A DNA stretch of 64,000 nt from positions 248,001-312,000 of the forward strand of contig NZ_FNPT01000001.1 in the NCBI RefSeq assembly GCF_900107375.1. Reading direction: 5' to 3'. The DNA is from Lysobacter sp. yr284. Its GTDB lineage: Bacteria; Pseudomonadota; Gammaproteobacteria; Xanthomonadales; Xanthomonadaceae. The notes beneath the pieces were generated by a model. The model ran no database searches. It was not told the DNA's origin and saw nothing but the letters and a program-made list of their open reading frames with translations. The stretch's first letter is position 1. Every line of letters begins with the position of its first letter. This document shows, piece by piece, positions 13,810-27,389 of this stretch. The translations under genes and the position numbers were made by a program.

Positions 13810-14964
13810 ATGCTCACCGATACCGCCCGTTTCGATTGCGACCTGGTCGTGGTCGGCGCCAGTTTCGCCGGCGCCGCCTGCGCGCTGGCGGCGGCGCGCG
13901 CCGGCCTGCGCGTGGTCGTGCTGGAACGCAAGCGCGATCCGGGCGACAAGCTGCGCACCACCGGCATCGTGGTCAAGGAAGCGGCCGAACAGACCTGGCT
14001 CAGCCGCGCCCCGGCCAGTTGCGTGCACCGGGTCGAGCGCGTGCGCCTGTATTCGCCGAACCTGCGCAGCATGGCGCTGAGCGCGCCGGGCTATTACTTC
14101 CTCACCACCGACACGCCGCGGCTGATGCGCTGGCTCGCGCAGGAGCTGCAACGCCACGGCGTCGACCTGCGCCTGGGCGCCTCGTTCACCCAGGCCGAAC
14201 GCGACGAGGAAGGCTGGCGCGTCGAGGGCGTCGGCCGCGCGCGCTTCCTGGTCGGCGCCGACGGCGCCAAGTCGCGCGTGGCCGAACGCACCGGCCTGGG
14301 CCGCACCCACGAGTTCCTGTACGGAATCGAATACGAATTCCCCGGCGCATCGCTGCCCGAGTCCGGCGCCCTGCACTGCTTCGTCAGCAAGCGCTACGCG
14401 CCGGGCTACATCGGCTGGGTCGCGCAGAACCCGACCGGCGTGCAGGCCGGCCTGGCGCTGCGCCACGATCCCGAGCGCGCGCGCGTGCCCGACATCGACG
14501 GCTTCCTGGCGCGGGTGCGCGACGCGGTCGGCCTCGCCCCGGACCTGCAACCGGCCGCCACCCGCGCCGGGCTGATCCCCTGCGGCGGCCCGGTGTTCCC
14601 GCTGGCGCGCAACGGCGCGATGCTGACCGGCGACGCCGCCGGCATCGTCTCGCCGGTCACCGCCGGCGGCATCCATTCGGCCTGGGCGCACGGCGAAACC
14701 CTCGGCCAGGCCATCGCGCTGCACGCGCGCGGCGTCGGCCCCGCGCCGGAGTCCATCGCCGAAGACGCGGCCCCGCGCTTCCGCCGCAAGCGCGCGCTGC
14801 GCTGGGCCTTCGACCGGTTCCAGTTCGACTGGCCGTTCGACCTGCTGCTGAATTCCACGCCGCTGCGCTGGGCGGCCGAGCAGGTGTACTTCCACAAGCG
14901 CGGGATGAGCGAAGAAGAAATCCAGGCCGATGCGGCGCGCTCGCGGGCGTCGGAGCATTACTGA
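13810..14964 (+). CDS. FAD-dependent oxidoreductase, geranylgeranyl-reductase-like family
   Basis: This 384-residue protein starts at ATG 13810 (MLTDTARFDCDLVVVG). It has an N-terminal Rossmann FAD motif (VVGASFAGAACALAAARAGL, residues 13-32, with Ala replacing the second Gly), then a dinucleotide-binding acid after VVVLERK. The middle segment LVGADGAKS and the C-terminal AMLTGDAAGIVSPVTAGGI (GD motif contacting FAD ribityl) are typical of the group that includes geranylgeranyl reductases and aromatic hydroxylases. The upstream extension of the frame is poor in complexity. The substrate is unknown. Confidence 0.8.
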   Translation: MLTDTARFDCDLVVVGASFAGAACALAAARAGLRVVVLERKRDPGDKLRTTGIVVKEAAEQTWLSRAPASCVHRVERVRLYSPNLRSMALSAPGYYFLTTDTPRLMRWLAQELQRHGVDLRLGASFTQAERDEEGWRVEGVGRARFLVGADGAKSRVAERTGLGRTHEFLYGIEYEFPGASLPESGALHCFVSKRYAPGYIGWVAQNPTGVQAGLALRHDPERARVPDIDGFLARVRDAVGLAPDLQPAATRAGLIPCGGPVFPLARNGAMLTGDAAGIVSPVTAGGIHSAWAHGETLGQAIALHARGVGPAPESIAEDAAPRFRRKRALRWAFDRFQFDWPFDLLLNSTPLRWAAEQVYFHKRGMSEEEIQADAARSRASEHY

Positions 14965-14992: not shown

Positions 14993-15026
14993 CACCGTCG
15001 TTCCGGCGAAAGCCGGAATGACGGTG
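14993..15026. repeat. Palindromic dispersed repeat, possible bidirectional terminator
   Basis: A 15-bp stem (14993-15007 with 15012-15026, one G-T pair) has a GAAA-type loop and contains GTTCCGGCGAAAGCCGGAAT. This is the form of a widespread Xanthomonadaceae palindromic repeat. It lies between two convergent genes, where it could end transcription from both sides. Confidence 0.65.
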
Positions 15027-15099
15027 TATAGGCATTGCGGGCGCGCGGTTGCGCGTACGCGCAGGCCTAGACAGCCTGCGCGGCACCGCCGGCACAAGC

Positions 15100-15897
15100 T
15101 CAGGCCAGCTCGAACCGGTCGCCGTCCAGCATCGCCGGGAACCGCTGCCGGTGCGCGGCCAGTTCCGCCGCCTGCAGGGTCGTGGTGACCACCACTTCCT
15201 CGTCGGTGCATTCGCTGATCGGCTGGCCGAGGAAATCGATCACGGCGCTGTCGCCGGAATAATGCAGGCCGTTGCCGTCGGTGCCGACGCGGTTGAGGCC
15301 GGCGACGTAGCACAGGTTCTCGATCGCGCGCGCGCGCAACAGGGTCTTCCACGGATAGGCGCGCGCCGACGGCCAGTTGGCGACGTACAGCAGCAGGTCG
15401 TAGTCGAGCGCGCCGGCGCGCTCGACGTCGTAACGGTTGCGCGAGAACACCGGGAAGCGCAGGTCGTAGCAGACCAGCGGGCAGATCCGCCAGCCCTTCC
15501 ATTCCACGCTGAGCCGGTCGCGGCCGGCGGCGTAGCGCTCGTGCTCCTTGGCGTAGCGGAACAGGTGGCGCTTGTCGTAAGTCTGCAGCGCGCCGTCGGG
15601 CGTGGCGAACAGCAGCCGGTTGAACACGCCTTCGTCGCTGCGCAGTTGCACGCTGCCGCAGACCGCGGCGCCCAGGCGCGCGGCCTGCTCGCGGATCCAG
15701 GCCACGGTCGGGCCGTCCATGGTCTCGGCGTTGCCGATGGCCTCGTTGCTGAAGCCGCTGGTGAAGGTCTCCGGCAGCAGCACCAGGTCGGTGATGCCCT
15801 GGGCCTGGCCGATCAACTCGCCGTAGTATTCGCGGTTGCCGGCGGGGTCGTGCCAGCGGGTGGCGCCTTGGATCAGGGTGATGCGCAGATCGTTCAT
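15100..15897 (-). CDS. Carbon-nitrogen hydrolase, omega-amidase (YafV/Nit2-like)
   Basis: This 265-residue protein starts at ATG 15897 (MNDLRITLIQGATRWHD). It has the nitrilase-superfamily triad: E43 in LLPETFTSGF, K109 in YDKRHLF and C143 in CPLVCYDLRFP. The SGFSNEA and YDLRFPVFSRN segments fit omega-amidases, which hydrolyse 2-oxoglutaramate or 2-oxosuccinamate formed by glutamine or methionine-salvage transaminases. A methionine-type aminotransferase occurs elsewhere in the window (43050-44198), a functional but not positional link. The enzyme is probably cytoplasmic. Confidence 0.85.
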   Translation of the reverse strand: MNDLRITLIQGATRWHDPAGNREYYGELIGQAQGITDLVLLPETFTSGFSNEAIGNAETMDGPTVAWIREQAARLGAAVCGSVQLRSDEGVFNRLLFATPDGALQTYDKRHLFRYAKEHERYAAGRDRLSVEWKGWRICPLVCYDLRFPVFSRNRYDVERAGALDYDLLLYVANWPSARAYPWKTLLRARAIENLCYVAGLNRVGTDGNGLHYSGDSAVIDFLGQPISECTDEEVVVTTTLQAAELAAHRQRFPAMLDGDRFELA

Positions 15898-15990
15898 GAG
15901 GGTCGGCCGGGCATACGTGCTGCCGGCATTATGACCCGCCACCGCGTCGTTGGCGCGCGACCCGCGCCGCGAATGGCGTACGCCGGCGCC

Positions 15991-16578
15991 CTATTCCCAG
16001 AACCGGTAGTCATAAGCGAATGCCCGGCGCCAGGCGTCCGCCGCCGGATCAGCCATGATCCGGCGCGCGTCGCCGAAGCGGCGCTCGCGCTCGCGCAAGG
16101 CCGCGGCGATGTCCGAGCGGTCGACCGCTTCGATCAGGTGGCCGTCGATGAACACCAACTCGCGCAGGCGCATATAGTTCCAGGCCGGTGGCGAGCCGCG
16201 GCCGGGCCGCTCGCAGGCGTCGCCGTCGCCGATCAACAGCCCGCCGCCGAAATCCAAGAGCAGGCCGAGCCCCGAGTAGCAGCTGCTGAAGCCCCGCTCG
16301 CGGTCGCAGCGCGGCGCCACGCCGTTGATCGCCGGCCCGGCGCCCAGACGCGGTTTTTTCGCCGACGGCGCGGACACGGCATGGTCCAGCATCAGCTCGT
16401 CGAGCCACAGCCGCGCGTCGACGCGGTAATGCACCAGCCAGCCGCGATCGAGCGCGGTGTAGTTGCGGACCGGCTCCAGGCCGTGTGCGAACGGATCGAA
16501 CAGCGCGCCGCCGGCCCAGCAGACCAAGTCGCAGGCGGCGCCCTCGAACAGGACTTGGTCGCTCAGCTGCTGGGTCAT
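15991..16578 (-). CDS. Hypothetical protein downstream of the P450 gene
   Basis: This 195-residue protein starts at ATG 16578 (MTQQLSDQVLFEGAAC). It is not recognised. Visible features are a Tyr/Trp/Leu-rich core (NYTALDRGWLVHYRVDARLW), five Cys residues, a Gly-rich strand pair (GLGLLLDFGGGLLIGDGDA), and a helical C-terminus (AALRERERRFGD). There is no signal peptide or membrane segment. It lies 124 bases downstream of the P450 gene on the same strand, so it could belong to the P450/peptide operon, but its weak ribosome site makes this uncertain. Confidence 0.65.
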   Translation of the reverse strand: MTQQLSDQVLFEGAACDLVCWAGGALFDPFAHGLEPVRNYTALDRGWLVHYRVDARLWLDELMLDHAVSAPSAKKPRLGAGPAINGVAPRCDRERGFSSCYSGLGLLLDFGGGLLIGDGDACERPGRGSPPAWNYMRLRELVFIDGHLIEAVDRSDIAAALRERERRFGDARRIMADPAADAWRRAFAYDYRFWE

Positions 16579-16702
16579 GGCCGACGGCCACGCGCGGGAA
16601 GCGCGCGCTGCCGCAGGCCGCGCGGCGCGGACGCCTTCACGGCGGCGCACCACGGCAACGCGGTTGCCCGCCCATCGCGCTTCGGCGCCGTCGCCGCGCG
16701 CG

Positions 16703-17938
16703 TCAAGCCGCAGCCGCGCCGCGAGGCGTCACGATGCCGGTGAAATCGACCGGAATGGCGAACCCTTCCAGTTGCATCCGCGGCGTCGGTTGCTCCTCCA
16801 CCTGGATGTCGAAATCGCGGGTCAGCAGCGCGCAGAACAGCACCAGTTGCGCATGCCCGACGGAACTGCCGATGCAGGCGCGCGAGGAGAAACCGAACGG
16901 CACGAACGCGCCCTTGTTGGACTGCCGGCGCGAGGCCAGCCAGCGGTCCGGATCGAACACATCCGGCGCGTCCCAGTAATGCGGGCAATGGTGCTGGTAG
17001 TACGAGGAAATCTCGTACGCGCCGCCTTTCTTGACCCGGATGCCGTCCACTTCGATGTCGTGGAACGCCGGGCGGCGCAGCGCGAACAACCCGGGCCACA
17101 CGCGGATGGTTTCCTTGATGAAGCGCGCCGTGCACGGCAGCTCCTTCATCGGCAGCGCGCACAGCGCGTCCACGCTCAGCGCGGTGGTCTCCGCGCGGAT
17201 GCGTTCGCGCCACTCGGGAAAGCGGTACATCGCGTACGCCAGACTGGCCGCGGTGATCCCGGGCAGGCCCGACATGCCCGCCAGCACCACCGACACCAGG
17301 TAGGCGACCCGGTCGGTGCCGATACGCTCGGCCAACGGCAACAGCGACTGCAGGAAATCCTCGCGGCTGCCGCCGTCGCGCAGCCGCTGCCGGATCTGCC
17401 GGCTCACTGCGCGCGCGGCCCTGCGCGAGCGGCCGAAGTCCACGATCCGCTGCCAGGGCGAGAAGTCCTGCAGGACGATGCCGTTGTAGCGGGCCTTCTG
17501 CTCGCCGATCAGCGCGGCGGTGTCGGCCTCGCCCAGGCCGTCGATCAGCATCGGCAGCAGCGATTGCGAGATGGTCCACCAGCTCAGTTCGCTGAGGTTG
17601 CGCACCGAGCCGGCGCGCTGCGCCAGGAATGCCTGCATGCGCGAGTAGAGGCCGCGCAGGTGCTCGGGTTCCGAGAGCCGCCCGGACTGTTCGATCAGCA
17701 CGGTGCGCACCACGCTCCAGGCGAGCGGATCCTTGGATTTGCGCAGCCCCAGGAAATCGATCAGCGAGTCCGGCACGCTGAGCCGGTCGGTATTGGCCTT
17801 GTCGACCTTGACCGCCAACACCGGGTCGAAGATGCCGACCACATCGTCCTGGAACTCGAGCACCGGTCCTTCCTGGCCGACGCGCCCGAGCAGATGGTCG
17901 ATGGAAATCGTTTCCGCGTTCGTCGTGCGTTGCGTCAT
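16703..17938 (-). CDS. Cytochrome P450, candidate peptide-modifying enzyme
   Basis: This 411-residue protein starts at ATG 17938 with GGAGG four bases upstream. The heme-thiolate loop is FGFSSRACIG with C355; Ser replaces the usual fourth-position Gly. The K-helix ExxR is E276-T-I-R279 and the DPDRW segment (residues 329-333) is present. The I-helix reads AGMSG (220-224), so the acid-alcohol pair normally used for oxygen protonation is missing, as in several P450s that make radical cross-links rather than simple hydroxylations. The gene follows a 33-residue peptide gene by 72 bases with a hairpin between them. By analogy with P450-modified ribosomal peptides, it probably cross-links aromatic side chains of that peptide. 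Redox partners are not encoded nearby. Confidence 0.9.
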   Translation of the reverse strand: MTQRTTNAETISIDHLLGRVGQEGPVLEFQDDVVGIFDPVLAVKVDKANTDRLSVPDSLIDFLGLRKSKDPLAWSVVRTVLIEQSGRLSEPEHLRGLYSRMQAFLAQRAGSVRNLSELSWWTISQSLLPMLIDGLGEADTAALIGEQKARYNGIVLQDFSPWQRIVDFGRSRRAARAVSRQIRQRLRDGGSREDFLQSLLPLAERIGTDRVAYLVSVVLAGMSGLPGITAASLAYAMYRFPEWRERIRAETTALSVDALCALPMKELPCTARFIKETIRVWPGLFALRRPAFHDIEVDGIRVKKGGAYEISSYYQHHCPHYWDAPDVFDPDRWLASRRQSNKGAFVPFGFSSRACIGSSVGHAQLVLFCALLTRDFDIQVEEQPTPRMQLEGFAIPVDFTGIVTPRGAAAA

Positions 17939-17952
17939 CGAGCCTCCAAAGA

Positions 17953-17979
17953 CCAGGGATGGTCTGCGACCATCCCTGG
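17953..17979 (-). promoter_or_regulatory. Perfect hairpin between the peptide gene and the P450 gene
   Basis: An 11-bp stem (17953-17963 with 17969-17979) has a CTGCG loop. It lies after the peptide stop and ends 14 bases before the P450 ATG. There is only a short T-run (TTT), so partial termination or mRNA protection is more likely than full termination. Either would give more peptide than enzyme, as is common in peptide precursor operons. Confidence 0.65.
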
Positions 17980-18010
17980 CGCTACTACGAAGTACGCGGA
18001 GCTTTGTCGC

Positions 18011-18112
18011 TTAGAACAAGATCCAGTAGATGTACTTGGAGCGGATGCTCTGGGTCGAATTGTTGGCACGCATGTTCAGCGACACCTGCACGGCACGGAT
18101 CAGATTGCTCAC
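18011..18112 (-). CDS. 33-residue peptide with aromatic C-terminus, candidate RiPP precursor
   Basis: The frame runs from GTG 18112 to TAA 18011. AAGGAG stands seven bases upstream of the GTG, one of the best ribosome sites in the window. The peptide starts MSNLIRAVQVSLNMRANN and ends STQSIRSKYIYWILF. The N-terminal part is a plausible leader helix. The last eight residues pack two Tyr, one Trp and one Phe among Ile and Leu, resembling cores cross-linked by P450s in atropopeptides and related compounds. The P450 gene is immediately downstream. No protease or exporter is evident nearby. It is too short for routine gene callers. That it is translated is well supported; its role as a precursor is inferred. 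Confidence 0.75.
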   Translation of the reverse strand: MSNLIRAVQVSLNMRANNSTQSIRSKYIYWILF

Positions 18113-18366
18113 GTTACGACTCCTTTTCGTTTCGTGGTTGTTCCGATGAAGCCAAGCCTCAAGGCCTGGCGCTTGAGTTCTAGCATGCGGCCTTTCCGGC
18201 GATTGCTAATAAATCGTTAATGCCGCCAGACGCCAAACAAGATCAAGTCCGCGGCCGCGTCTGCGTGTTTCGCCGTCCGCGGCGCCGACGAAAACCGGAC
18301 CGACGGCCGCAATGCTCCGCGGCCGATCGCCGCCACCCTCGCCCGCTTCGCCACCCCACAAACGAA
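18113..18366. promoter_or_regulatory. Upstream region of the peptide/P450 unit
   Basis: Between the virD4 terminator and the peptide gene is an AT-rich block around 18205-18222 (TTAACGATTTATTAG on the minus strand), rare in this GC-rich window and about 95-105 bases before the peptide start. It is the likeliest promoter location. No gene is supported here. Confidence 0.4.
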
Positions 18367-18391
18367 AACGCCGCCGGAGTCCGGCGGCGTT
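18367..18391 (-). terminator. Rho-independent terminator after virD4
   Basis: An 11-bp stem (18367-18377 with 18381-18391) is followed on the minus strand by a T-rich run (TTCGTTTG). It lies 25 bases after the virD4 stop and marks the end of the T4SS locus. Confidence 0.85.
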
Positions 18392-18416
18392 CGCGCATGC
18401 GCTGCAGGGCGGCCGG

Positions 18417-20093
18417 TCAGCCGACCCGGATGTCCAGCATCGGCACGTTGACCTTCGGCAGCAGCCGCTGGGTGAACAGCTTGTCCTGGTAGTACTTGAT
18501 CTTGTCGCACTTCACCGGGTGCGGGATGCCTTCGTACAGGAACACCTCGGCGTCGAAGCCCATCGCCTTGAGTTCCTGCGGCAGCATCAGCGCGCGGCGC
18601 TCTTCGGACTCGCTGCGCGAGACCTCCTTGCCGCGGGTGACGTTGGTCTTGCGCACCGTGGTGTAGCCGAGCATCTCGGAGTAGTCGTTGGCGTCCTGCT
18701 GCTCGCGCGGGGCGTAGATGATCTGCAGCGCGTGGTTGGTGATGATGGTGCGCGAGACGTCCTTGCCGTAGGTCGCATCGAGCTGCGACATGCTCTGGAT
18801 GATCGGCAGCAGGCGGATGTTGTAGCCGGCCATGTACGACACCGCCGCGGCGATGATGTCGACCTTGCCGATGGAGGTGAACTCGTCCATCAGCAACAGG
18901 CACTGGTGCTTCAGTTCCTTGTTGTTCTGCGGCAGCTCGCGGGTGTTGAGGTTGATGATCTGGCTGAAGAACAGGTTCACGATCAGCCGGCTCTCGGCCA
19001 GCTTGTTCGGCTGGATGCCGACGTAGATCGTCATCTTCTTCTTGCGCACGTCGGTCAGCAGGAAGTCGTCGGCCGAGGTGGCCGCGTCCAGCACCGGGTT
19101 GATCCAGGGGTTCAGCGGTTCCTTGAACGTGCCCAGGATCGAGGCGAAGGTCTCGTCGGCCTGCGACAGCATGTTGGCGAACGCGGACTTGGCGTTGGCG
19201 CTCAGGAACGGACGCTCCGACAGGCCCTTGAGGAACGGCTTGAGCTCGCTCTTGCCGTCGCCGGAGGACAGCCGGTAGACCGCGCCGATGGTCGGCTGGG
19301 TCGCGAACGGGAAGCCGACCTTCTGCGCGTCGTCGTAGGCCTCGAACAGGTACAGGGTGAAGGCCATGAACGCGTTGCGCGCCTGGCTGATCCAGAACTT
19401 CTGGTCGTCGGAACCGTCCGGATAGAGCATCGCGGCGATGCTCATGAGGTCGGAGACGCGGAACGCCGGGTCGCTGGACACGTAGGTCAGCGGGTTCCAG
19501 CGATGGGTGCGGCGGTCTTCGGCGAAGGGGTTGAACAGGAAGATCTCCTGGCCCTGCTGCGCGCGCCAGCCGCTGGTCAGGTCGAAGTTCTCCTGCTTGA
19601 TGTCCAGCACCACCATCGAACCCTGGTAGTTGAGCAGGTTCGGGATGACGATGCCCACGCCCTTGCCCGAACGGGTCGGCGCGGCCAGGATCACGAACTG
19701 CTGGCCGCTGAGCTGGACCAGCTTGCCGTTGTACTTGCCGACCACGACCGAGGTCGGAGTCGACTTGAACATGTCCTTCTTGTCGAGGTCGCCGGCGGTG
19801 GCGAAGCGCGCGTCGCCGTGCATGGACTGCTTCTTGGGCATGAACAGCAGGTACAGCAGGCCCAGGTACAACAGCACGGGGAAGCCGAAGCCGAGCAGGC
19901 CGCCGGCCTTGATCTTGCCGGCGTAGGGCTTGACCTGCGGCAGGTCGAGCGCCTTGAGGTACTGCAGATAGGTGTCCCAGGCCAGCGGCGCCTGCAGCTT
20001 GAGCAGCATCAGCGTCAGATAGCCCGACAGGTACAGTCCCGCGACTGCGGTCGCCAGCAGCGCCACGATGGCGCCAATCGCCTTCCCTTTCAC
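18417..20093 (-). CDS. virD4: VirD4 coupling protein of the X-T4SS
   Basis: This 558-residue protein has two N-terminal membrane segments (about residues 7-32 and 64-85). A cytoplasmic P-loop ATPase follows with Walker A APTRSGKGVG (138-147) and Walker B CLLLMDEF. In X-T4SSs the all-alpha domain of VirD4 binds the XVIPCD of effectors and feeds them to the channel. Here the gene ends the locus after the effector array, separated from virB7-virB6 by about 10 kb of effector and immunity genes. It has its own terminator. No relaxase accompanies it. Confidence 0.95.
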   Translation of the reverse strand: MKGKAIGAIVALLATAVAGLYLSGYLTLMLLKLQAPLAWDTYLQYLKALDLPQVKPYAGKIKAGGLLGFGFPVLLYLGLLYLLFMPKKQSMHGDARFATAGDLDKKDMFKSTPTSVVVGKYNGKLVQLSGQQFVILAAPTRSGKGVGIVIPNLLNYQGSMVVLDIKQENFDLTSGWRAQQGQEIFLFNPFAEDRRTHRWNPLTYVSSDPAFRVSDLMSIAAMLYPDGSDDQKFWISQARNAFMAFTLYLFEAYDDAQKVGFPFATQPTIGAVYRLSSGDGKSELKPFLKGLSERPFLSANAKSAFANMLSQADETFASILGTFKEPLNPWINPVLDAATSADDFLLTDVRKKKMTIYVGIQPNKLAESRLIVNLFFSQIINLNTRELPQNNKELKHQCLLLMDEFTSIGKVDIIAAAVSYMAGYNIRLLPIIQSMSQLDATYGKDVSRTIITNHALQIIYAPREQQDANDYSEMLGYTTVRKTNVTRGKEVSRSESEERRALMLPQELKAMGFDAEVFLYEGIPHPVKCDKIKYYQDKLFTQRLLPKVNVPMLDIRVG

Positions 20094-20130
20094 GTTTTAC
20101 TTCCTGCTTGATCCCCGAACCCGCTGTCGG

Positions 20131-20421
20131 TCAGCGTCGCTTCCGGCCTGTCCGGAGCCCGGAACGCTCCGCCGGGCGCGATTGCGCCATCATATCCGGC
20201 GAAAGGCTGCCGTTGGACAACAATTCCTTGAGGATCTCGTCGTCCATCCACTTCTGGGCGTCGCCCAGGGTCAGTTCCTGGCGCAGCTTGACCCCGGCCG
20301 AGGACATCACCGCATAGGCGTAGACGTCCTGCTGGTCGAACTCGGACTCGCGGGTCAGGGCGACGATCTGGAACTTGCCCTTGGTCTGGACGGTGTGGCG
20401 GTATTCGCTGGTGTTGCTCAT
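20131..20421 (-). CDS. Hypothetical protein encoded between the toxin-less XVIPCD gene and virD4
   Basis: This 96-residue hydrophilic protein (MSNTSEYRHTVQTKGKFQIV) has no signal peptide. The central segment DVYAYAVMSSAGVKLRQELTLGDAQKWMDDEILKEL looks like two strands and two helices, and the C-terminus is Arg-rich. It is 37 bases upstream of virD4 and 34 bases downstream of the XVIPCD protein, so the three are probably co-transcribed. An adaptor or chaperone-like role in substrate loading is possible from position only. The family is not recognised. Confidence 0.75.
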   Translation of the reverse strand: MSNTSEYRHTVQTKGKFQIVALTRESEFDQQDVYAYAVMSSAGVKLRQELTLGDAQKWMDDEILKELLSNGSLSPDMMAQSRPAERSGLRTGRKRR

Positions 20422-20455
20422 CGGTCCTCCTGGGCCTGCGCGCCGGGCGGCGCGC

Positions 20456-20995
20456 TCAGTCGCGCTCGCGCGTCAATGCGCGCGCGGCCGCGGACTGCTG
20501 CGGTTGCTGCTCGTCGTTGTTGCGTTCCGGGTTCTGGCGCTGGCGCTCGTTGTCGCGCTCGCGCTCGGTCTGGCGCTGCTGGTCGCGCACGTCCTGCTCG
20601 CGCGCCAGTTGCGCGAACTGCTCGCTGCTGCGCTGCAGCGACTGCTGCGCGGCCTGCTCGGTGTCGACATAGCTGATCCGCCGGGTCGGCGAATCGGCGT
20701 CGCCCTCGATCGCGAACGCGCGCTTGCCGTCCTGGCTGAAGGCGACGCCGTCCACGCGCTGGCGCTCGCGGGTGGCCTCCAGCAGCAGCGCGCCGGCGAG
20801 GTTGTCGCGTTCGCCGGGGCTGAACTGGCGCGCCGCGTCCTGGCGGTCCAGGCACACGCGCACCTGCGAGAACAGGTCGTGCTGGGGGTGGCTGGGGCTG
20901 CTGAGCAGATTGCGCTGCTGCGCCCGGCGCACCTCGTCGAGGGTCTGCGAGGAGGCATCGATGCCGACCCGCAATTGTTGGTCCTGCGAATTCAT
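20456..20995 (-). CDS. Short XVIPCD-type protein without a toxin domain
   Basis: This 179-residue protein starts at ATG 20995 after GGGAG. Residues about 30-130 match the XVIPCD plan: SPSHPQHDLFSQVR, DNLAGALLLEATRERQRVDG, KRAFAIEGD, then YVDTEQAAQQSLQRSSEQF. The C-terminal 50 residues are a Gln/Arg/Glu-rich tail, as in secreted effectors. Only about 30 residues precede the domain, so there is no enzymatic module. It may be a reduced effector, a decoy or regulator of VirD4, or a toxin of unknown mode. Genes for the 96-residue protein and virD4 follow. Confidence 0.75.
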   Translation of the reverse strand: MNSQDQQLRVGIDASSQTLDEVRRAQQRNLLSSPSHPQHDLFSQVRVCLDRQDAARQFSPGERDNLAGALLLEATRERQRVDGVAFSQDGKRAFAIEGDADSPTRRISYVDTEQAAQQSLQRSSEQFAQLAREQDVRDQQRQTERERDNERQRQNPERNNDEQQPQQSAAARALTRERD

Positions 20996-21415
20996 CGTCG
21001 TCTCCCTGCCGGAGCGGCTCCGGTCGCGATACACGGCCGCCGCGGGCCCATCGAAGGCCCGCCTGCAGCCTACCCCTTTGCCGTGGCCATGGTCGAACCG
21101 GGGCGTCCGGCCATGCGCTTGGCGCTGTCGAGTCCGGGCAAGCGGCAGCGGCAGGCTCGATCTCCCTAGCGATCGAGCCTGCCGTGCCTACCCCGCCCTC
21201 GCGGACGAAGCCGGGACGTCCTTGTCGCGAACCCCGCAGAGACTTCGATGCCGTCCCTGGCCTGCGGGATCCTCTCGACCGATGCCGGCGCTCCACCTCC
21301 ACCGAAGACGCGGTGCCGGTACCGGTCGAACTGCTGCGCCGCCGCGACGTCCGTGCCGGGCGATGCCTGCTTGCTGTCGCCGCGGCGGCGCATCCGCCGC
21401 CGCGGCCGAGCCGCC
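20996..21415. other. Intergenic region with a 13-bp hairpin (21150-21183)
   Basis: No gene is supported in these 420 bases. A perfect 13-bp stem (21150-21162 with 21171-21183, loop TCCCTAGC) lies about 230 bases after the M23 effector stop. It lacks a T-run on either strand; it may mark an mRNA end or a processing site between the effector array and the virD4 unit. Confidence 0.5.
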
Positions 21416-22552
21416 TCAGCCCAGCGTCATGCGCGGCGGCTGGTGCTGCTGGGTCTGCTGTTTTTCCTGTGCCGGCTGGTCGGCCTGGCGCGCCGGCGCG
21501 TCCTGGGCCAGGCGCTGGCTGGTCTGCTCCACGCTCTGGCTCATGGCCTGCTGCTTGTCGGCGTACACGCGGTGGTGGGCCGGGTCGTTCAAGCCGCCCT
21601 CCACCGCGAACACGCCGTTGCCGTTGACGTTCTGCACGACGTGGTTGATGTCCTTGAGCCCGCTCATGCGCGCCTCGTAGGTCAGCGTCGCGGCGGCGCG
21701 CTCGCGGTCCTGCGGCGTGCGGAAACCGGCGTCCGGGCCGAGCCGCTCCAGGCCTTCCAGCGCCTGCCGGTACATGCGGTTGTCGGGGTGGTTCGGATTG
21801 GAGATCAGCGAAGCCTCGTCGCCGCCGCGGCGCGGGCCGGCCTCGCGCAGCGCGTCCAGGGTGCGCGGGCCGGCGACGCCGTCCTCGCGCAGGCCGTTCT
21901 CGCGCTGGAAGCGCGCCACCGCCTGGCGGCTGCGTTCGCCGAAATCGCCGTCCGCCGCCAGCGGCCGGCCCTGGTCGTCGCGATAGCCCAGGCGGTTGAG
22001 GGTTTCCTGCATCGCGCGCACTTCGGCGCCGCGCTCGCCCTGGCGCAGCACGCCGTCGGCGCCGGCCGCGGCCGGCGGCGCGGCGCTGTGCCCGCCGTTG
22101 TTCTGCCCGCCGACGTGCTGGCGGCGGTTCCAGAAGTCTTCCGGATTGAGGTTGTTCCCCTGCGCGTCCTTCATCTGGTAATGGACGTGCTGGGCGTACT
22201 GCGCCTCGCCGTTCGGCCCGCGCCCGCCCATGGTGCCGATCGCGGTGCCCGGCTCGACCCGCTGGCCGACCACCACCGACTGGCTCTGGGTGTGCAGCAA
22301 CTGGTGGCGGTTGCCTTCGCCGTCGACGATGGTGACGGTGCCGTAACGGCCGCCGACGAACTCCACCGTGCCCGCCACCGGCGAATGGATGGTCGGATGG
22401 GTCAGGTTGACCCCGGCCTGGCCGCCGACGTAGTTGAAGTCCGAGCCGCCGTGCGGCCCGTTGCCGCGATGCTCGCCGTAGTGGCCGGTGATGTGCGGCG
22501 CGCGTCCCTGCTGCGGCGGCAGGATGGTGTTCATGACGTCTTGGTAGGACAT
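21416..22552 (-). CDS. X-T4SS effector: M23 metallopeptidase, peptidoglycan-binding domain and XVIPCD
   Basis: This 378-residue protein has AGGAG upstream of its ATG. Residues 20-140 form an M23 endopeptidase with a complete metal site: H34 and D38 (HGGSD), H87 (LLHTQ), H122 and H124 (QHVHYQM). It should cut peptide cross-links in target peptidoglycan. Residues 166-236 are a peptidoglycan-binding domain (VRAMQETLNRLGYRD, DGVAGPRTLDAL). Residues 248-350 are the XVIPCD (MSGLKDINHV, VFAVEGGLNDPAH), followed by a Gln-rich tail. No signal peptide is present, consistent with T4SS delivery. Its immunity lipoprotein is encoded just upstream. Confidence 0.9.
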   Translation of the reverse strand: MSYQDVMNTILPPQQGRAPHITGHYGEHRGNGPHGGSDFNYVGGQAGVNLTHPTIHSPVAGTVEFVGGRYGTVTIVDGEGNRHQLLHTQSQSVVVGQRVEPGTAIGTMGGRGPNGEAQYAQHVHYQMKDAQGNNLNPEDFWNRRQHVGGQNNGGHSAAPPAAAGADGVLRQGERGAEVRAMQETLNRLGYRDDQGRPLAADGDFGERSRQAVARFQRENGLREDGVAGPRTLDALREAGPRRGGDEASLISNPNHPDNRMYRQALEGLERLGPDAGFRTPQDRERAAATLTYEARMSGLKDINHVVQNVNGNGVFAVEGGLNDPAHHRVYADKQQAMSQSVEQTSQRLAQDAPARQADQPAQEKQQTQQHQPPRMTLG

Positions 22553-23726: not shown

Positions 23727-24899
23727 TCAGGCGGTCATCGTCTTGGTCGCGCGTTCCTGCGTCTGCTCCGGCGCGACCTTCGGCTGCTCCGGCACGTCCT
23801 GCTTGAGCTGCTGGCTGGAACGCTCCAGCGGCGTGTTCACCGCCTGCTCCTTGTCGGCGTGGACGCGGCGCGCGGCCGGGTCGTTCAACTCGCCCTGCAC
23901 CGCGAACAAGCCGGTGCCGTTGGCGTTGGCGACGACGGCGTTGATGTTGGTCAGGCCGCTCACGCGCGCTTCGTAGGTCAAGGTGCCGGCGGCGCGCTCG
24001 AGTTCGGCGCGATCCTTGAACGCACCGGGGCCGAGCTTCTCCAGCCCTTCCACCGCCTGCTTGTACATGCCGTTGTCGCGGTTGGCCGGATCCGACAGCA
24101 GCGCGCCCTTCTCCGGCGGCGCCTTCTTCAGCGCGTCCAGGGTCTTGGGGCCGGCGACGCCGTCGTCGTCCAGGCCGTAGGCGCGCTGCGCCTGCTGCAG
24201 GGCGTGCTTGGTCGCGGCGCCGAAATCGCCGTCGGGCTTGAGCGGCTGGCCCTTGGCGTCGCGGAAGCCGAGTTCGTTCAAGCGCTCCTGCATCGCCTTG
24301 ACCGCCGGGCCTTCCTCGCCCTGGCGCAGACGGCCGTCGGCCATCGCGTCGGCCGGCTTGGCCGGCGTCGCGGGCTTGTGCTCGCCGGGCTTGTGCTCGG
24401 GCAGCTCCGGCGCGCCGCGGCCTTCGGCCAGGGCGATGCCGCGACGCATGGTCGGGCCGTTGAACACCTTCGCCAGCTGCTCGGCGTAGTGCGGATCGGT
24501 GGCGTAGCCGGCCTTCTGCAGGGCCTTGGCTTCCTTCTCCAGGTTGCCCAGGGTGCCTTCCTCGAACAGGCCCGCGCGGGTGTAGCGGCCGTTCTCCTTG
24601 AGGAACTTCACCCGGTCGGTCAGGGCTTCGTCCATCGAGCCGTAGACGCGGAAGTCCTGGTCCTTCCAGACCTTCTTGCCGCCCTCGATCTCCCACACGT
24701 TGAAGGACTTGGTCGGGCCGTCCCAACCCTTGCTGTCCTTGATGTTGAAGATGTTGTTGGTGCCCGGCAGGACCTTCTCGCCCCAGCCGGTTTCCAACGC
24801 GGCCTGCGCCAGGATCAGTTCGGCCGACATGCCGGTCTGCTTGGATACGCGCACCGCGGCCGGGTACAGGTCGGCGATGAATTCTTCCTTATTGCCCAT
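23727..24899 (-). CDS. X-T4SS effector: GH73-like glucosaminidase, peptidoglycan-binding domain and XVIPCD
   Basis: This 390-residue protein starts at ATG 24899 after AAGGAG. Residues 1-150 match FlgJ-type glucosaminidases (GH73): ILAQAALETGWGEKVLPG with catalytic E36, NIFNIK, and FRVYGSMDEALTD. It should cleave N-acetylglucosaminyl bonds in the target wall. Residues 190-256 are a peptidoglycan-binding domain. Residues about 266-370 are the XVIPCD (VSGLTNINAV, GLFAVQGELNDP), where the usual NHV is NAV. A short Gln-containing tail follows. The immunity lipoprotein gene is 71 bases upstream. Confidence 0.9.
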   Translation of the reverse strand: MGNKEEFIADLYPAAVRVSKQTGMSAELILAQAALETGWGEKVLPGTNNIFNIKDSKGWDGPTKSFNVWEIEGGKKVWKDQDFRVYGSMDEALTDRVKFLKENGRYTRAGLFEEGTLGNLEKEAKALQKAGYATDPHYAEQLAKVFNGPTMRRGIALAEGRGAPELPEHKPGEHKPATPAKPADAMADGRLRQGEEGPAVKAMQERLNELGFRDAKGQPLKPDGDFGAATKHALQQAQRAYGLDDDGVAGPKTLDALKKAPPEKGALLSDPANRDNGMYKQAVEGLEKLGPGAFKDRAELERAAGTLTYEARVSGLTNINAVVANANGTGLFAVQGELNDPAARRVHADKEQAVNTPLERSSQQLKQDVPEQPKVAPEQTQERATKTMTA

Positions 24900-26078: not shown

Positions 26079-27389
26079 TCAGAGGCCCTGGCTTCGGTTT
26101 CTTTGCGGGTCCTGGGTGGGTTCGGCCGACTGCGGAGCGTCCAGCTTCACCTGGTACGTCGACTGCTCGAGCGGCTGGTTCGCCGCCTGTTGCCTGTCGA
26201 CGTGGATGCGCTGGTGGCCCGGATCGTTCAGGCCGCCCTGCACTGCGAACAGGCCGGAGCCGTCGCCGGTGGCCACGATGTGATCGATGCGGTTGATGCC
26301 GCTGATCTTGGCTTCGTAGGTCAGCGTACCGGCCGCGCGTTCGAGATCCTCGCGGTTCTTGAACGCATTCGGGCCGAGCTTTTCCAGCCCCTCGACTGCG
26401 CTCTTGTACAGGGCGTTGTCGGGATTGGCCGGATTGGACAGCAGCGGCGATTGCGCCGCCTGCTTGAGCGCGTCCAGGGTCTTGGGGCCGGCGACGCCGT
26501 CCTCCTTGAGCCCATGCGCGCGCTGGAACGTGCGCAGCGATTCGCCGGTGCGATCGCCGTAGTCGCCGTCGGCGCGCAGCGCATTGCCCTGCGCGTCGCG
26601 ATAGCCGAGCTTGTTGAGCGTCTCCTGCATCGCGCGCACTTCCGCGCCGCGCTCGCCGTGCTTGAGCAGGCCGTCGGCCATCGCCGGCGCGTTCGCCGCA
26701 GCGCGTGCCGGATGCGCCGGCTGCGCATCGTCGCCGCGCGACAGCGTCTTCGGATCGCGCGCCATGTAGGCGTTCAAGCCGTCGCGGTTGCGGGTGATGT
26801 CGTGCAGGTAGTCGTAGTTGCTGGTGCCGTTGGCGTCGCGGATCGCGCGGCCGCCGGTGACCGCGGCCTTGGCCCCGCCGTAGCCGGCGATGTGGCGCGC
26901 CTTGAGGAAGCCGGCGATCAGTTCGGGCTTGGAATCCTCGTCGAGCACGCCGTCTTTCACGGCTTGCCGATAGGCCTTGTCGCTGTTGATCTTGAAGGCC
27001 TTGTCCTGCAACTCGGCCGAGCCCTTGTACTGGTCCAGGCTCATGCCCTGGTTCCAGTTGGACTTGTCGTCGAGGAAGCGGGTCATGCCGCCGGCGCTCG
27101 CCCACTTCCATTCCGCGCCGCGCACGGTGGCAGGGTCGTAGCCGTCGCGTTTCATCGCGGCGTCGAGCTTGTCTTTATTGAGATAGCCGGCATCGGCGAG
27201 CCAACCGGCTCCCGCCTGGTAGCGACCGACATAGCCTTGCTTGTTGGTGATGGCCAGATCACCGCCGTTGCTCTCGGTCATGACCGTAGAAGCAACCAAT
27301 CGCCGGGTCATCGCGTCGTCCAAGCTCGCGATAGTACCCTGGTGGTACTCGTGGGCAGTGGCCGCTGCCTTCTCACGTCTATCAGCCAT
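26079..27389 (-). CDS. X-T4SS effector: lysozyme-like domain, peptidoglycan-binding domain and XVIPCD
   Basis: In this 436-residue protein, residues 25-210 resemble lysozyme-fold muramidases or lytic transglycosylases: STVMTESNGGD with a likely catalytic E39, then QGYVGRYQAGAGWLADAGYL. Residues 240-309 are the peptidoglycan-binding domain (VRAMQETLNKLGYRD, DGVAGPKTLDAL). Residues 315-420 are the XVIPCD (KISGINRIDHIV, GLFAVQGGLNDPGH), followed by a short Pro/Gln-rich tail. No export signal is present. It is the first effector after the structural genes, and its candidate immunity lipoprotein is 87 bases upstream. Confidence 0.85.
   Translation of the reverse strand: MADRREKAAATAHEYHQGTIASLDDAMTRRLVASTVMTESNGGDLAITNKQGYVGRYQAGAGWLADAGYLNKDKLDAAMKRDGYDPATVRGAEWKWASAGGMTRFLDDKSNWNQGMSLDQYKGSAELQDKAFKINSDKAYRQAVKDGVLDEDSKPELIAGFLKARHIAGYGGAKAAVTGGRAIRDANGTSNYDYLHDITRNRDGLNAYMARDPKTLSRGDDAQPAHPARAAANAPAMADGLLKHGERGAEVRAMQETLNKLGYRDAQGNALRADGDYGDRTGESLRTFQRAHGLKEDGVAGPKTLDALKQAAQSPLLSNPANPDNALYKSAVEGLEKLGPNAFKNREDLERAAGTLTYEAKISGINRIDHIVATGDGSGLFAVQGGLNDPGHQRIHVDRQQAANQPLEQSTYQVKLDAPQSAEPTQDPQRNRSQGL

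Follow-up and report, generated by a model that had tools for sequence, protein, structure and literature searches.

Gene content and limits of the module

The window, a stretch of 64,000 nucleotides from Lysobacter sp. yr284, contains on its minus strand a precursor peptide gene of 33 residues, running from a GTG start to a TAA stop (18011–18112; product MSNLIRAVQVSLNMRANNSTQSIRSKYIYWILF), followed on the same strand by a gene for a candidate peptide-crosslinking cytochrome P450 of 411 aa (16703–17938). A 12-bp hairpin with a 3-nt loop lies between the two genes (17953–17979, minus strand). The Shine-Dalgarno sequence AAGGAG (18120–18125, minus strand) stands 7 nt ahead of the GTG, as it also does in G008, a genome of the same genus whose P450 is the nearest relative of the window P450 (95% identity). 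Translation of the frame gives the C-terminus SKYIYWILF, and the start codon, the well-spaced AAGGAG and the aromatic ending YIYWILF described in the first-pass annotation were all confirmed in the sequence. The peptide would divide into a leader of about residues 1–26 and the core YIYWILF.

The next gene on the strand had been called an atypical P450. Its frame is open and matches PF00067 (6.7e-30), and the product retains the ExxR motif and the Cys haem loop but carries SGLPG at the site of the usual I-helix acid–alcohol pair. Structure prediction gives a P450 fold (mean pLDDT 85.4), for which the 50 matches listed in a fold comparison are general P450s only, for example CYP184A1, CYP170A1 and CYP120A1. 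It is the sole P450 found in the 6.25-Mb source genome (PF00067, E ≤ 1e-8).

Modules of this kind, here called A-type, have the core K-Y-[IR]-Y-W-x-[IL]-F (RSK-Y-x-Y-W-x-x-F) and a single P450, and are found in the window, G008 and Stenotrophomonas. The B type, whose P450s form the sister branch of A, has the core W-x-x-W-x-x-W-[VI]-E-F and is found in Lysobacter-like bacteria and Stenotrophomonas.

On one side the module is flanked by genes for a VirD4-type coupling protein and four XVIPCD-domain proteins (18420–20093, 20459–21034, 21419–22552, 23730–24899 and 26082–27389, minus strand), which probably belong to a bacteria-killing type IV secretion system encoded on the chromosome. Two of the four XVIPCD proteins carry M23 peptidase or glucosaminidase domains. 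The VirD4 gene was matched in all 20 genomes of the genus, and the 330 bases downstream of it were examined in ten. The module follows in two of these ten; three reach an ORF of 195 residues directly and three the start of a nitrilase gene (identified by eye), the module being absent between the flanking genes in all six. The next gene was not identified in the remaining two.

The 195-residue protein had been suggested as a possible partner. Its ORF was matched in five of the 20 genus genomes (the window's own, G001, G002, G014 and G008). G001, G002 and G014 hold it without an A-type module (G001 carries a B-type P450 at another site). The G008 match covers just the final 20 residues of the protein and lies beside an intact module; the candidate was accordingly rejected. 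Because relatives lack the module between the same flanks, and because the 195-residue ORF occurs separately, the unit is taken to consist of the peptide gene, the hairpin and the P450 gene. The A modules of Stenotrophomonas have neighbouring frames different from those of the window. A Pfam scan of 13 neighbouring frames, five of which gave no match and one of which was an off-frame stretch (13836–14961, plus strand), returned no protease or exporter among the neighbours scanned, in agreement with the earlier statement that no dedicated protease or exporter is nearby.

Peptide conservation and pairing with the P450

The peptide genes of the window and G008 differ at 3 of 102 bases, all synonymous and in three codons. 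Upstream of the peptide 19 of 126 bases differ, the stretch adjoining the start being identical, and 3 of 72 differ between the peptide and P450 genes. Since the intergenic and start-adjoining bases are equally conserved, the local conservation between these two genomes extends beyond the peptide. Compared with seven Stenotrophomonas copies, the window peptide gene shows dN of 0.165–0.24 and dS of 0.50–1.01; three near-identical Stenotrophomonas pairs in the comparison have a dS of 0. Twenty positions are invariant among the five distinct A-type peptides, including L4, R6, A7, Q9, V10, S11, L12, N13 and R15 in the leader (consensus M-x-x-L-x-R-A-x-Q-V-S-L-N) and R24, S25, K26, Y27, Y29, W30 and F33 at the C-terminal end.

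Relatives of the P450 were collected from 395 genomes of the family at E ≤ 1e-40, independently of any peptide, giving 22 genes in 20 genomes. A qualifying peptide was defined as a frame of 25–45 residues led by a Shine-Dalgarno sequence, no more than 400 bases upstream, carrying W or Y at positions −7 and −4 as well as three or more W or Y among the last ten residues; this aromatic criterion was fixed after peptides had been seen. Such a peptide precedes all 22 related P450 genes. Among 6600 shuffled upstream regions one had a qualifying peptide, and the remaining DNA of the 20 large loci (508,298 nt, both strands counted) had none. The check proposed in the first-pass annotation therefore has an answer: the aromatic-ended peptide is kept upstream of related P450s, and the loss that was to count against the reading was not seen.

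An A-type peptide profile run against the 395 genomes gave full-length matches (residues 1–33 or 2–33) in five, all beside A-type P450s, and these are the same five genomes that hold an A-type P450; the peptide copies adjoin the P450 in all five. Two short, stop-containing matches in a sixth genome were taken as chance. A precursor also lies beside the P450 in 12 of 12 named A and B loci from Stenotrophomonas and a Lysobacterales MAG, a set that overlaps the family set (at least three are identical genomes). The same holds for 10 of 10 distant loci, from Myxococcus, an Acidobacteria MAG, a Thermoanaerobaculia MAG, Shewanella, Rheinheimera, Virgisporangium, Amycolatopsis (two) and Lentzea (two), where the precursors of L065, L069, L072, L073 and L074 were found only without the Shine-Dalgarno filter and the starts in L072 and L073 were picked by eye within a longer frame. 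A scan of genome contigs with a single protein as query gave 51 stretches, none of which was confirmed. One relative, at 40% identity, occurs on a 10.5-kb IMG/VR contig (L132:31–1194), where it begins at the contig edge; the contig may be a misassigned chromosomal piece.

The hairpin is paired in all 108 cells of an alignment of nine A-type sequences, and two of its pairs are changed on both sides. Of 500 shuffle controls, none matched the alignment in paired cells, in cells altered on both sides or in covariation score, but 205 reached its count of both-side-changed pairs and 356 its number of pair types. In slid controls 30–56% of cells pair. Strong stems are predicted in B-type intergenic regions as well (RNAfold, without shuffle control), and an Rfam scan of positions 15000–20500 gave no match. 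The hairpin may set the ratio of precursor to enzyme.

The position of the peptide directly upstream of the P450 gene, with a hairpin between, is also what would be expected if the frame arose by chance or encoded an unmodified leader or signal peptide attenuating expression of the P450. We consider this highly improbable in view of the few amino-acid and many synonymous changes separating the window peptide from the Stenotrophomonas copies, the varied precursor cassettes, up to three per locus, found in relatives with two P450s, and the fact that kin peptides pass a RiPP precursor model. A functional precursor is the preferred reading in what follows.

P450 lineages and the hyalucidin family

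A P450 tree of 66 rows was built by a quick method from a selection of frames: 25 P450_2 (of 46 available), 13 separate P450_1 (of 18), 3 CitB (of 7) and 25 others (of 66). The 25 P450_2 rows, the window P450 included, form one clade (SH-aLRT 100), within which A groups with B (99) and each of the core types A, B, C and H occupies its own branch. The 13 P450_1 rows form another clade (99), and CitB falls among the other P450s. Any sister placement of P450_1 and P450_2 in this tree is tentative, the program having warned that their long branches meet.

The C and H types have cores with W-x-W or Y-x-W, ending in Y-[HRN]-x-[IVL], and a second P450, P450_1. The latter was found in 19 of 19 two-P450 loci (one being the query's own), while in all 23 A and B loci the best match to it was weak and fell on P450_2 itself. 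By sequence, the window represents a single-P450 branch with B as its sister branch and the two-P450 loci as relatives. The nine C loci, all in the window's family, also contain homologues of a MATE exporter and of two M16 peptidases. Within the stretches examined, none of these turned up in the 10 H loci or the 23 A and B loci.

Several arrangements among the relatives deserve mention. In L036 and L037 some 2 kb separate the A from the B P450 gene, and each has a precursor of its own; an A-type and a B-type P450 lie about 2–4 kb apart in the Stenotrophomonas loci L036, L037, L053 and L054. In nine genomes of the window's family (L044–L052; e.g. L048:8141–14864) the two-P450 cluster holds between one and three precursors of the type W-[RH]-W-x-x-Y-H-[NT]-I, together with genes for two M16 peptidases and a MATE exporter; two peptides of this type that were tested score under the hyalucidin cut-off. 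The P450 gene order is reversed, with P450_2 first, in L067 and L068 (Shewanella and Rheinheimera).

The link to hyalucidin is provided by NCBIfam model NF053510 (hyalucidin A precursor, cut-off 35 bits), which is passed by two 29-residue precursors from the same P450 clade (Virgisporangium and Amycolatopsis; 47.8 and 65.1 bits). The window precursor scores 15.3 bits over residues 1–20, far under the cut-off, which is also missed by the Acidobacteria peptide (27.6) and by those A, B and C peptides that were scored (14–20, with no score for one B peptide); the Shewanella peptide has no score. Across genomes at E ≤ 1 the model gives weak matches in 47 of 99 family genomes, none over the cut-off, and also in the E. 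coli and B. subtilis controls; such matches were not counted as evidence alone. In a test of leader kinship, three A-type scores were reached by 2, 1 and 0 of 1000 shuffles, that of the window leader by 2 of 1000. The hhalign probability of A is 94.8 with B and 69.0 with the hyalucidin-type peptides. The window P450 is orthologous to the P450_2 of the loci with model-passing precursors (one clade of 25 rows in the quick tree, SH-aLRT 100). Of the systems compared, the hyalucidin family comes closest: the window P450 is an orthologue of one of the two P450s of hyalucidin-type clusters, and the leaders are related.

The I-helix acid–alcohol pair is absent in all 38 P450_1 and P450_2 rows of the alignment and is kept in 3 of 3 CitB and 24 of 25 other P450 rows. 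Its absence hints at an unusual oxygen activation. As CitB, the P450 linked to CitA, keeps the pair, its loss is no proof of side-chain coupling, and coupling does not need the loss.

Proposed product and comparison with known systems

We propose that the locus is probably a minimal RiPP module in which a 33-residue precursor is paired with one P450 coupling aromatic side chains; a conserved precursor beside an intact P450 is the general trait of P450-crosslinked RiPPs, and the window has it. The precursor would be made beside its single P450, and the intergenic hairpin may hold it in excess. By analogy with published models (PMC11450843, PMC12299652), the leader would bind to the P450 while R-S-K-Y-x-Y-W-x-x-F, at the C-terminal end, would enter the haem pocket. 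The enzyme would then couple side chains in Y27-x-Y29-W30, most likely by one or two Tyr–Trp or Tyr–Tyr bonds, each with a predicted shift of −2 Da; for YIYWILF the calculated [M+H]+ of 1017.544 would fall to 1015.529 with one cross-link and to 1013.513 with two. R24 and K26 may serve as an anchor and K26 as a possible cleavage site, by analogy with ApyO (PMC13192836). A host protease could cut near the invariant Lys26, releasing a heptapeptide of the YIYWILF type in cyclised form, or a trimmed version of it.

RiPP P450s are also reported to carry out other chemistries (PMC13192836), and the peptide could be a P450 substrate that undergoes hydroxylation, dehydrogenation or decarboxylation rather than side-chain cross-linking. 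This is unlikely, because every branch conserves several aromatic residues in its core, some precursors of the same P450 clade pass the hyalucidin model, and the acid–alcohol pair is missing in all P450_1 and P450_2 rows.

A wider reading may be put forward tentatively: the window might belong to an undescribed superfamily of RiPP cyclases, made up of two P450 lineages that lack the acid–alcohol pair and modify precursors sharing a related leader. One of these lineages would act alone in Xanthomonadaceae, split into a YxYW and a WxxWxxW branch that lie side by side in some Stenotrophomonas, yielding two new kinds of Tyr/Trp-bridged peptide, possibly through an oxygen activation unlike the ordinary one. 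The A-type branch may already be listed in the P450-RiPP surveys of He 2023 and Liu 2024, the latter with 1057 clusters in 11 categories, as cited in PMC12299652. Among titles and the starts of abstracts in the open-access papers searched we found nothing on P450 RiPPs of Lysobacter or Stenotrophomonas, and among titles nothing related to the core strings of these peptides. The module places such systems in Lysobacter-like bacteria and Stenotrophomonas, connects a lone P450 with a pathway in which two are said to act, and provides a pair of genes with which to examine how a single P450 selects bonds in a Tyr-x-Tyr-Trp core; with the residues that most P450s use for oxygen activation replaced in every sampled enzyme of the two clades, the family is a natural test of what a peptide-coupling P450 needs.

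The first-pass annotation had described a minimal RiPP locus with a YIYW-type core akin to the cittilin, atropopeptide and biarylitide pathways. The precursor/P450 pairing and the conserved aromatic end bear out the first part of that description; the kinship finds no support in the comparisons made, which covered the cittilin system by P450 tree and leader, and atropopeptides and biarylitides by features of the precursor.

Cittilins share with the window a short precursor with a Y-I-Y-aromatic end adjoining one P450. In a sample of the genus Myxococcus, peptides ending in YIYY occur in 8 of 27 genomes (L134–L141), with a P450 frame downstream in seven of the eight. The cittilin core is YIYY. 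Because the reported length of CitA is 27 residues, the 27-residue YIYY peptides were taken as CitA and L134–L141 as cittilin-type loci. The likeness of the cores, and of a peptide preceding a P450 frame, would fit a cittilin-family member in which YIYW is a variant of YIYY made by a CitB-type P450, a reading whose probability we regard as close to negligible. The three CitB rows fall outside the P450_2 clade (SH-aLRT 100), so that the window P450 is no CitB orthologue; the CitA-like leader is not related to the A-type leader by the shuffle test (203 of 1000 shuffles reach the score); the window peptide does not end in YIYY but has three residues after YIYW; and none of the 13 neighbouring frames matched a methyltransferase (Pfam; five without any match, one off-frame), an enzyme that the myxobacterial cittilin pathway is reported to have (PMC8708641). 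Cittilin kinship was therefore rejected.

Atropopeptides such as tryptorubin, reported also from Xanthomonas, likewise combine a short precursor with a P450, but are defined by a KSLK-type motif in the leader and by Trp as the second core residue (PMC11450843); the window peptide has neither. Biarylitides have a five-residue precursor (PMC13417212), unlike the 33 residues of the window. The proteobacterial aminopyruvatide enzyme ApyO is reported to couple the two Tyr of Y-L-Y, to need Arg or Lys before the motif, and to give C–C, N–C or C–O bonds depending on the residues (PMC13192836). The RSK of the window peptide might serve likewise. However, ApyA has 66 residues and its cluster contains further enzymes, and the window P450 scores 58.4 bits with the ApyO model NF050147, under the cut-off of 525.

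The closest resemblance is to the hyalucidin A family, in the related leader (residues 1–18 to 1–20), the P450_2 clade membership and the aromatic C-terminal core, which reads KYIYWILF in the window and Y-x-W-Y-x-Y-H-x-I in the two peptides that pass the hyalucidin model. Hyalucidin needs two P450s according to the title of doi 10.1002/anie.202522698 (cited in PMC13417212), whereas the window has one, with no tandem P450_1, and a precursor scoring under the model cut-off. In function the module may resemble hyalucidin- or cittilin-type P450 RiPPs, yet it belongs to neither family as these are defined.
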